NCBI GenBank assembly: GCA_001769215.1
Contig: MEOL01000050.1
Span: 124,001-188,000, forward strand
DNA length: 64,000 nucleotides
Source: Bacteroidetes bacterium GWF2_41_31
GTDB taxonomy: Bacteria; Bacteroidota; Bacteroidia; Bacteroidales; F082
Reading direction: 5' to 3'
Within the stretch, counting starts at the first letter, position 1. Each line of letters starts with the position of its first letter. Below are positions 49,784-55,107 of this stretch, piece after piece. The position numbers and the translations under genes were made by a program. Under the pieces are notes generated by a model that did not search any database, was not told where the DNA came from, and was given only the letters and a program-made list of their open reading frames with translations.

Positions 49784-50558
49784 GGTTGGTTTTTTTAGAA
49801 ATAACCTTCATGGCTACGAAAATGGCCAGACAAATAGAGATAAACAGCACAGTGACCGGTGTAGCGTATTGTAACCCGTAAGAGCTAAACCGTTCAAAAA
49901 TCATAACGGGAGTAATCATGGGGTGATAGGCGATAATGATAACGGCCCCAAATTCACTTAATCCCCGTCCCCACATCATGATTAATCCGGTGAGGATGCT
50001 CCTCCATGCCAGGGGCAATGAAATAGTGAAGAAAACCCTCGACTTGGAAGCTCCCAATGTGAGGGCTACTTTTTCGAGCCGCTCCGGCACACTAATAAAA
50101 CCATCTATGGCAGCGTTTATTAAATAGGGAAGACTCACAAAAGCCATGGCAACCATGATTCCTGCAGGATTGTTGACAAAACTAAACCCCAGCGACTCTG
50201 CGATTTTACCCAACAGGGTATCTCTCGAAATAATTCCCAACAAGGCAATCCCTGCCGCCGAGTGCGGTATAATCACCGGGATATTGATGATTCCTAGCAA
50301 GACTCTCTTGAAAATAAATTTCTTTCTGGCCAACAAATAGGCCAGAGGAATGGCTCCTATAGAAAAAATGAGGGTGGCAGCCATGGACGAAGAAATGGTT
50401 AACCAGATGCTTTTCTGTACTTCCGGTTCCAGTGCTGTTTCAAACAGGCTGAAGGGAGTAGTTGAAAGAAACAGCCCGATTAGGGGTGCAAGGATAAACA
50501 ACAAGAGCAAACCTGCCAGAAAAATAAAGACTAAACTGATATTGTCAGTTTTTTTCAT
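49761..50558 (-). CDS. molybdate/tungstate ABC transporter permease
   Basis: A 265-residue permease with six hydrophobic segments. The EAA-like cytoplasmic loop KVALTLGASKSRVFFTISLPLAWRSILTGLIMMWGRGLSEFGAVI is typical of ModB/WtpB. The IPHSAAGIALLG segment also fits. With the ATPase and substrate-binding proteins it completes a transporter. It starts just after a YD-repeat lipoprotein gene, which separates it from wtpA. Confidence 0.88.
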   Translation of the reverse strand: MKKTDNISLVFIFLAGLLLLFILAPLIGLFLSTTPFSLFETALEPEVQKSIWLTISSSMAATLIFSIGAIPLAYLLARKKFIFKRVLLGIINIPVIIPHSAAGIALLGIISRDTLLGKIAESLGFSFVNNPAGIMVAMAFVSLPYLINAAIDGFISVPERLEKVALTLGASKSRVFFTISLPLAWRSILTGLIMMWGRGLSEFGAVIIIAYHPMITPVMIFERFSSYGLQYATPVTVLFISICLAIFVAMKVISKKTNHAETGEN

Positions 50559-52929: not shown

Positions 52930-53066
52930 TACCCGAAAAGGGTATGACCTGAGTATTTTGCGCATATTTATACCCTAAAAGGTATAATACTTAATATTCT
53001 TAATAAACGCATACCCGAAAGGGTATATTTATACAATATTGTATTATATTTGTACCCAAAAGGGTA
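52930..53066. promoter_or_regulatory. four evenly spaced operators and -7 element of hipBST
   Basis: Four copies of the palindrome TACCC-N4/5-(G/A)GGTA lie at 52930-52944, 52971-52984, 53012-53025 and 53053-53066. Their centres are 40.5, 41 and 41 bp apart, about four helical turns, so all are on the same DNA face. A perfect -7 element TATATTTG (53045-53052) abuts the last copy, so that operator covers the predicted transcription start. This is expected for autorepression by the HipB-like protein, which recognises palindromes as a dimer. Confidence 0.8.
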
Positions 53067-53071
53067 TAAAT

Positions 53072-53278
53072 ATGAACTTGGCAACTTTTGTAAAGGAAAA
53101 ACGTAATTCAGTTCAGCTCACACAGCCGGAGTTGGCAGAGAAAGCGGGTGTTGGCTTACGTTTTATAAGAGAACTGGAACAAGGAAAGGAAAGTATGCGG
53201 TTAGATAAAGTAAATCAGGTGCTGCTACTTTTTGGATATGAAGTAGGCGCTGTTCCTGCTAAAAAAGAAAATGAGTGA
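53072..53278 (+). CDS. hipB: HipB-like antitoxin/repressor (HTH)
   Basis: A 68-residue XRE-type helix-turn-helix protein (VKEKRNSVQLTQPELAEKAGVGLRFIRELEQGKESMRLDKVNQVLLLFGYEV), of the y4mF/HipB kind. The ATG at 53072 is used; the open frame extends upstream to 53039, but that part contains the last operator. It overlaps the next gene by one base (TGATG). It is expected to bind the four upstream operators and to neutralise the toxin complex. Confidence 0.88.
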   Translation: MNLATFVKEKRNSVQLTQPELAEKAGVGLRFIRELEQGKESMRLDKVNQVLLLFGYEVGAVPAKKENE

Positions 53279-53607
53279 TGAGAAAGGCTGCCATAAAAAT
53301 AGATAAACAATTGGCCGGATGGCTTACGCAAGATGAAGGTGGATATCATTTTGTGTATGATAAAGCCTATTTAGTTACCTCACATCCCAGGCCGGTTAGT
53401 CTTACATTGCCCTTGCAGGAAGCCACAACTACCTCCAATGTGTTATTCCCGTTTTTTGACGGTCTCATTCCTGAAGGATGGTTGTTGGATATAGCTGAAA
53501 AAAACTGGAAGCTAAACCCCAGGGACAGAATGGGTATACTGCTGGCTTGTTGTAAAGATTGCATTGGGGCTGTAAGTGTGGAAGAAATTAAGGAGGATAA
53601 CGAATGA
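53278..53607 (+). CDS. hipS: HipS-like protein, HipA N-terminal subdomain
   Basis: A 109-residue protein equal to the N-terminal subdomain of HipA (GWLTQDEGGYHFVYDKAYL, PRPVSLTLPL, FPFFDGLIPEGWLLDIA). In E. coli O127 the separate HipS protein is the antitoxin that blocks the HipT active site. Trp68 in PEGWLL could play the role of the Trp known there, but this is inference. The ATG at 53278 overlaps the hipB stop, so the three genes are coupled. Confidence 0.82.
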   Translation: MRKAAIKIDKQLAGWLTQDEGGYHFVYDKAYLVTSHPRPVSLTLPLQEATTTSNVLFPFFDGLIPEGWLLDIAEKNWKLNPRDRMGILLACCKDCIGAVSVEEIKEDNE

Positions 53608-54545
53608 ACCGTTGTTTATACTGTTACAAGTTGTTGGAAAATAGAGAACAGGACTTTCACTCCTCCTGTTCTAAAAAAATATTTGGTCAACCAAACCCTC
53701 CGGCATTACTTTATTCGGAAGCAGATTTAGATTCTTTGGCAAGAGAGGTGATACAAAGCCAAACGGCTGTAACCGGTGTACAGGCAAAAATATCGCTACA
53801 CATTACAGGAAATATGAATGATCAGAAAGGACGAAGGTTTACCATTGTAGGACTGTGGGGTGGTTATATATTAAAACCACCTACTGCAATGTATCCTCAT
53901 TTACCAGAAGTGGAAGATGTTACCATGCACCTGGCTGAGCAGGCAAAAATAAGAACAACTCCGCATAGTTTAGTTCGGCTGGCATCGGGCAATCTGGCGT
54001 ATATCACCAAACGGGTCGACCGGACAAAAAATGGAAAACTGGCCATGGAGGACATGTGTCAGTTAACAGAGCGGCTTACAGAAGATAAATATCAGGGTAG
54101 TTATGAGCAAATAGCTAAGGCGATTCAGAAATACTCATCTACACCAGGTTTGGATGTGGTGAATTTTTTTGAGTTGGTACTATTCTCCTTTTTAACCGGT
54201 AATGCCGACATGCATCTGAAGAATTTTTCCTTGTTGGAACAGCCGGGTTTAGGAATGATTTTATCTCCGGCCTACGACCTGGTTAATACAACACTGGTAA
54301 ATCCTGATGATGATGAAGAGTTGGCGCTAACTTTAAATGGCAAAAAGAAAAAAATAAAGAAACAGGATTTTGTTGCAGCTATGAACACCATGAAAATGGA
54401 AGAAAAACAGCAAGAGAATATTTTTAATAAAATGGAAAAGGTTCAATCCAAATGGATGGAGCAAATAGAGGTCTGTTTTTTGAGTAATGAATATAAACAG
54501 CAATATAAAAGTCTCATTTTGGAAAGATTTAACAGAATGTTATAA
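53604..54545 (+). CDS. hipT: HipT-like serine/threonine kinase toxin
   Basis: A 313-residue kinase corresponding to HipA without its N-terminal subdomain, overlapping hipS by 4 bp (ATGA). The N-terminus has a zinc-finger-like pattern C4-x2-C7...H19-x2-C22. The glycine-rich loop reads AVTGVQAK (55-62). Catalytic D202 and N207 are in GNADMHLKNFSLL, and the metal Asp225 in SPAYDLVNTT. HipT kinases phosphorylate tRNA synthetases (TrpS in the E. coli O127 system) and stop growth. The autophosphorylation motif, SxS in E. coli HipT, is AVT here. Confidence 0.88.
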   Translation: MNRCLYCYKLLENREQDFHSSCSKKIFGQPNPPALLYSEADLDSLAREVIQSQTAVTGVQAKISLHITGNMNDQKGRRFTIVGLWGGYILKPPTAMYPHLPEVEDVTMHLAEQAKIRTTPHSLVRLASGNLAYITKRVDRTKNGKLAMEDMCQLTERLTEDKYQGSYEQIAKAIQKYSSTPGLDVVNFFELVLFSFLTGNADMHLKNFSLLEQPGLGMILSPAYDLVNTTLVNPDDDEELALTLNGKKKKIKKQDFVAAMNTMKMEEKQQENIFNKMEKVQSKWMEQIEVCFLSNEYKQQYKSLILERFNRML

Positions 54546-55107
54546 GAAGTGAGACAACAGATTTTAATCCTTCCTGCGACCTTGCTTTGTCATGGTAATC
54601 GCTTTCTCGTTGCTTCCCGTCACCCGTAGATCCCCCAGCATTTGAAACAGCTTTGCAAGCAGATTCAAATTCTGACGCTGCTCATAGTTTATGCTCGCCT
54701 GCGGTCGCTTCCAGCTGCGTTGCTGTCATGGTTTTTGTACTACCCGAGGCTTACCCCAGAACAAAAACAACGCCAGCGCCTTGCGTAAACGTAGTGGAAA
54801 ACGCCTTCGGCTCCCTTTTCCACACCGGAAGCTCAACTCGCGGGCGGCTCACGTTGGGAATATTAAGTATATTCGGCAGCGTTTTCTTCTTACAGGTGTT
54901 TGTATCGGTAATATTTTCCACGCAGTATTGTAGGTTGGTTTTTTGTAAATGTCCTTTTATTATGTTTAATTTAAACATTTATGATAATTCATATAAAACT
55001 GATAACCAGCGTATATCAAATGTATGATAAAATTAATATTAACTTATGGTTAAAGTTATTGTTTTTTGTCGTATACTTGCAAAGAATTTTATTGAAAGGT
55101 GGATGTT
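54546..55107. other. non-coding stretch with a GC-rich patch
   Basis: No gene is supported here. The part from about 54560 to 54920 is clearly richer in GC than the AT-rich flanks, and contains short palindrome-like pieces, while overlapping reading frames lack conserved character. From 54930 to 55107 it becomes AT-rich, with a -7-like TATACTTG at 55072-55079 before the next gene. Confidence 0.45.

Follow-up and report, generated by a model that had tools for sequence, protein, structure and literature searches.

The window (the whole 64-kb stretch of DNA that was analysed) contains an intact hipB-hipS-hipT operon with four TACCC-N4/5-(G/A)GGTA palindromes on its 5' side. The features of the locus are as follows.

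52930..52944, no strand: distal operator (fourth from the gene), TACCCGAAAAGGGTA, with N5 and one additional A; from the sequence
52971..52984, no strand: third operator, TACCCTAAAAGGTA; from the sequence and relatives
53012..53025, no strand: second operator, TACCCGAAAGGGTA, directly 5' of the expected -33 region; from the sequence and relatives
52945..53052, no strand: region containing the three spacers between the operators, 26, 27 and 27 bp long; the -7 box forms the end of the third
53045..53052, plus strand: putative sigma-A -7 box, TATATTTG, fitting TAnnTTTG; from the sequence consensus
53053..53066, no strand: proximal operator, TACCCAAAAGGGTA, over the expected transcription start, between the -7 box and the ATG; from the sequence and relatives
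53072..53278, plus strand: hipB, encoding a 68-residue Y4mF-type helix-turn-helix protein (TIGR03070 above cut-off, HTH_3)
53278..53607, plus strand: hipS, encoding a 109-residue homologue of HipA N-subdomain-1, the antitoxin (TIGR03071, PF13657)
53604..54545, plus strand: hipT, encoding a 313-residue HipA_C kinase (PF07804, E 4e-47)

The three genes encode the parts of a HipBST module: a helix-turn-helix HipB, a separate HipA N-subdomain-1 (HipS) and a HipT kinase lacking this subdomain. HipB has a relative in the PDB, HipB(Lp) (8ezt), and the nearest solved relatives of HipS and HipT are HipS(Lp) (7vkb_B, E 1.5e-16) and HipT(Lp) (8ezr, E 1e-49). In the alignment with 8ezr, the HipT motifs TGVQAK, GNADMHLKN and SPAYDL are all intact; the protein thus has the Gly-rich loop region, the catalytic D in GNxDxHLKN and the metal-binding D in SPAYDL. 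At both the hipB-hipS and the hipS-hipT junctions, the stop codon of one gene overlaps the start codon of the next. Judged by its gene content, the locus is a hipBST tripartite toxin-antitoxin operon. By the definition of such a module, HipS would neutralise HipT, and HipT would phosphorylate a tRNA synthetase. The same genome contains two further, distant hipS-hipT pairs, both belonging to a second hipBST lineage (see below). HipT residues 1-30 (window 53604-53690) form a Cys-rich segment, MNRCLYCYKLLENREQDFHSSC, that resembles a small zinc-binding motif. Just 3' of hipT, window 54590-54900 is GC-rich in AT-rich surroundings and is present as a single copy in the genome.

The centres of the four operators are separated by 40.5, 41 and 41 bp, as a sequence-only reading of this DNA had described. 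The odd distance of 40.5 bp arises because the distal site holds one additional A. Its counterpart in a near relative (L006) has N4, and the distal site of the window, carrying the extra base, may be weak. In the whole 64-kb window 0.24 matches to the palindrome pattern are expected and nine strand-wise matches were found, a number reached in none of 100 dinucleotide-preserving shuffles. The fifth matching position, 50207-50220, falls within a permease gene and does not belong to the array. Elsewhere in the genome, matches to the 14-bp pattern occur at background frequency (16, compared with 12-16 per strand in a reversed control), and the same search revealed no second array. A wider HipB regulon was rejected because TACCC sites are no more frequent than background in the rest of this genome, and HipB most likely controls its own operon alone.

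The -7 element had been said to abut the last palindrome, and TATATTTG indeed adjoins the proximal operator, which sits in the 19 bp between this box and the hipB ATG at 53072. Only 5 bp separate the operator from the start codon. TAnnTTTG is the sigma-A -7 consensus of Bacteroidota (PMC7366714; PMC9723704), and it is found immediately 5' of the proximal site in 34 of 98 relatives in strict form and in 35 more in loose form. In Flavobacterium the -7 box is located at -12 to -5 (PMC9723704). If the same applies here, transcription is predicted to start near 53057, within the proximal operator, and the leader would be about 15 nt long. The hipB promoter, assigned by consensus only, is accompanied by several palindromic sites, one of which overlaps the core promoter or start point.

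In the sequence-only reading, lack of conservation in close relatives was one outcome that would count against the idea. We collected hipB upstream regions from 198 relatives, from 395 genomes sampled across the phylum, and from 80 named genome contigs and six viral contigs; with near copies removed, 120 such regions of Bacteroidota and Chlorobi hipBST operons were kept. Allowing up to two arm mismatches, these contain 360 sites versus 9.4 expected from mononucleotide shuffles, although the 120 loci have a common ancestry and the counts are not fully independent. The spacing is kept phylum-wide, and the idea was not refuted by this check. Using the 14-bp form only (n = 236 gaps), 143 gaps are 41 bp, 77 are 40 bp and seven are 42 bp long; there are two gaps each of 39 and 43 bp, and five of other lengths. 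Thus, 220 of the 236 gaps are 40 or 41 bp and 231 fall within 39-43 bp. The rare gaps outside this range include 50 and 20 bp, and gaps of 30-31 and 51 bp are nearly absent. The longest regular run comprises three sites in 74 loci, four or more in 21 and two in 16; three is the usual number, and the four sites of the window are a minority form seen in roughly one in six loci. A motif-free autocorrelation, counting per locus the 14-bp segments that repeat at a given lag, gave 49 loci at lag 40 and 85 at lag 41, with further peaks at lags 80-82 and 123; the remaining lags averaged 1.3. Chance occurrence of the array is ruled out by the window shuffles, the site counts in relatives and this autocorrelation.

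What lies between the sites is poorly conserved. The distal spacer cores show 33% identity between loci (0.327), compared with 31% (0.310) after shuffling each, whereas operator identity is 74%. How far the last site lies from the start codon differs among loci, with a standard deviation of 16 bp. Given near-random spacers, a loose distance between operator and ATG and a fixed spacing, only the inter-site distance is held, and this pattern indicates that the distance is under selection. The base composition of the spacers is modulated in step with the sites: the middle of the spacer, 20 bp (two turns) from the sites, is AT-rich and positions about 15 bp from the sites are GC-richer. Distal and proximal spacers both show this profile (p = 0.0002, the smallest value attainable with 5000 shuffles).

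Two groups of records in this collection deserve mention. hipBST operons are also present on contigs classed as viral in IMG/VR (L115-L119), and the three of these kept in the analysis (L115, L117 and L118) have operator arrays of 40-42 bp spacing; a search of the phage GenBank collection gave no match. Records L047, L066, L078 and L112 are titled Rhizobium, Caenarcaniphilales, Sericytochromatia and Ruminococcus and contain a Bacteroidota-type hipBST; these assemblies are probably misbinned or mislabelled.

One group of HipB proteins, in which the helix GVALTVIRKIEQ replaces GVGLRF(I/V)RELEQ, has promoters without TACCC sites. These promoters carry ATATG-N6-CATAT sites instead, three of them near -89, -49 and -9, 40 bp apart, in most of the nine promoters examined, the site calls being noisy for such an AT-rich motif. 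On sequence grounds, the operator sequence follows the DNA-reading helix while the number, position and spacing of the sites are unchanged. The tracking of the recognition helix by operator sequence, and not by spacing, ties the sites to HipB.

The second hipBST lineage (L002, L003 and L182-L241, with G000:C50:238635 and G000:C48:32599 as the members in the window's own genome) likewise has evenly spaced operators 5' of hipB, but differs in HipB classes, operator sequences and spacings. In the motif-free test of 58 non-redundant promoters, 27 loci showed a lag of 61 bp, nine of 122 bp and ten of 71 bp; in 40 shuffles no lag exceeded six loci. Gaps are mostly 60-62 bp in the AGTGC-N8-GCACT class and 61-62 bp in the CATTATAATG class. 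In the latter, the palindrome nearest the gene has its centre 2 bp 5' of the start codon, and the ATG itself therefore lies within the operator (L200, L215, L219, L230, L232, L235 and L239-L241). The TACYG-N6-CRGTA class has 18 gaps of 70-73 bp and three of 61 bp; gaps of both 71 and 61 bp, one helical turn apart, occur in the promoter L209. On a HipB tree built from few columns the 40-41 bp class clusters, with 5 changes as against 33 after shuffling. The 71 bp class is not distinct on this tree when a crude motif-free label is used, and a clean clade-by-clade map of spacing was dropped for this reason; motif-based gaps separate the classes better.

The class means of 40.7, 61.1 and 71.1 bp fit a common period of 10.17 bp. 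When three spacings are drawn at random, a common period of 10.0-10.8 bp to within 0.05 turn is obtained in 1.5% of draws, and the three means were picked post hoc, so that a common period of about 10.2 bp for hipBST spacings is suggestive only. It does not extend to every Hip system. E. coli K-12 MG1655 hipBA was correctly said to have four operators of another sequence and spacing: there are four TATCCN8GGATA sites with measured gaps of 28/39/28 bp, which do not match this period. The unsplit hipBA loci of Chlorobi (L270-L281) have upstream lags of 27, 54 and 108 bp, regular yet unlike those of hipBST. A universal whole-turn rule is ruled out by these two systems. The upstream regions of plasmid hipBST operons from Gammaproteobacteria and Arcobacter are few and too AT-rich for spacing calls.

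The idea that the sites, about four helical turns apart, lie on one face of the DNA holds strictly only if the helical repeat is close to 10.2 bp. With 10.5 bp per turn, steps of 40-41 bp fall short of four turns by 34 to 69 degrees (34 degrees for 41 bp), and the 122.5-bp array of the window accumulates about -120 degrees. For strict alignment on a single face, the repeat would therefore have to be tighter or the DNA path wrapped; a repeat of about 10.2 bp, such as left-handed wrapping would give, could make up the difference.

We think it likely that the palindromes are a HipB autorepression array whose spacing sets adjacent HipB(ST) complexes in register for cooperative repression, probably involving bending of the DNA. 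We infer HipB binding, cooperativity, a contact or bend and a response to HipT as parts of this scheme. HipB dimers, alone or as HipB-HipS-HipT complexes, would occupy each site. The complex at the proximal site would cover the edge of the -7 box, the start point and the 5' end, blocking RNA polymerase; that at the second site would sit near the -33 region, and the upstream sites would bring in further complexes. A spacing of 40-41 bp, four turns of about 10.2 bp, would give neighbouring complexes an equal rotational register, in which they could bind cooperatively, either through direct contact or by following a common, smoothly bent path of the DNA. The outcome would be a steep, dose-sensitive autorepression that reads the HipT:HipS:HipB ratio. 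Because gaps of 30-31 and 51 bp are nearly absent, a same-face requirement is insufficient by itself and distance probably matters as much as phase; a fixed distance in turn suggests contact between adjacent complexes or a defined DNA path. The rare exceptions tend to differ by roughly one or two turns (gaps of 50 and 20 bp in this class, or 61 for 71 bp in the TACYG class), a sign that phase matters too. The in-step GC profile of the spacers is what would be expected of smoothly bent DNA; it may have other causes, such as a -33 element in the proximal spacer.

The same data can be read in other ways. Multi-site autorepression is frequent in toxin-antitoxin systems, and the sites might simply be independent, redundant operators that increase local occupancy or summed affinity, their spacing being inherited without any contact or cooperativity. 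It would fit with this that HipB of Legionella binds single-site fragments individually, and that the authors of that study took their gel shifts to reflect possible intermediate occupancy, not strong cooperativity (PMC10653801). However, neutral insertions and deletions would have widened the gap lengths in spacers that are otherwise near random; the distance to the ATG varies widely in those same loci, and the spacing persists even where the operator sequence has been replaced. We consider redundancy unlikely. Less probable still is DNA looping, in which HipB tetramers or HipT-HipT contacts would bridge distant sites, for example the first and the fourth. Looping, too, needs helical phasing, and the sites are about whole turns apart. 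However, 40-41 bp is far under the persistence length of DNA, so that a loop between neighbours would be very costly; the sequence-only reading had raised looped binding, which is implausible for neighbouring sites 41 bp apart. Moreover, most loci carry just three sites, and loops would allow many whole-turn distances, whereas this class uses only about 41 bp.

It is very improbable that the sites serve another regulator, or form RNA hairpins or terminators. The palindromes can be drawn as hairpins and there is one weak terminator-like match on the minus strand, but three of the four sites lie 5' of the promoter and, if transcription starts from it, cannot form part of the hipB mRNA. Matches resembling terminators are no more frequent than in shuffles, and a terminator or hairpin function was rejected. 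Against another regulator, the operator sequence shifts with the HipB helix class and the array is seen nowhere else in the genome.

A cooperative HipB array, our preferred reading, might be one case of a broader rule, which we put forward tentatively and regard as rather doubtful: that each HipB class has its own operator and all arrays are even, with spacings of four, six or seven turns of about 10.2 bp each, owing to a regular HipB(ST) filament that bends or wraps the promoter DNA. If this were true, the in-step changes of AT and GC content in the spacers would serve as the signal for bending. The spacing itself yields a concrete prediction for the packing of HipB-kinase complexes on promoters, and the array is a simple sequence signature with which to find hipBST promoters and assign their operators.

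The hipBA operon of E. coli K-12, for which autorepression by HipBA is known, resembles the window in having four HipB-type palindromes (O1-O4) 5' of hipB. Its arrangement of TATCC-N8-GGATA sites at 28/39/28 bp is not that of the window: the sites are paired, with no even array and no whole turns, and the partner is an unsplit HipA, whereas the window has split HipS and HipT. The hipBST operon of E. coli O127 shares its gene order and split kinase with the window (PMC10627512, PMC6581861). HipB is reported there to be necessary and sufficient to repress the promoter, with HipT strengthening repression (PMC10627512); the portions of the two papers covered here do not describe operators.

As far as we found in a partial literature search, even hipBST operators had been described only for Legionella. 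In L. pneumophila, three evenly spaced inverted-repeat sites (O1-O3), conserved in 28 species, are bound by HipB(Lp) in vitro, and HipT and HipS-HipT join the HipB-operator complex (PMC10653801). As in the window, the even operators precede hipB-hipS-hipT and the proximal one overlaps the promoter. The Legionella sites are 18 bp long and separated by gaps of 53 bp, giving 71 bp between centres (PMC10653801), or about seven turns; the window array is also even, but at 41 bp, or four turns. The operator sequences are unrelated, and the proximal Legionella site is 24 nt from the start codon, compared with 5 bp in the window. The principle of even spacing thus extends, with a different and very rigid distance, from an array known in one genus to one that spans a phylum, and a second lineage in that phylum has yet other spacings.
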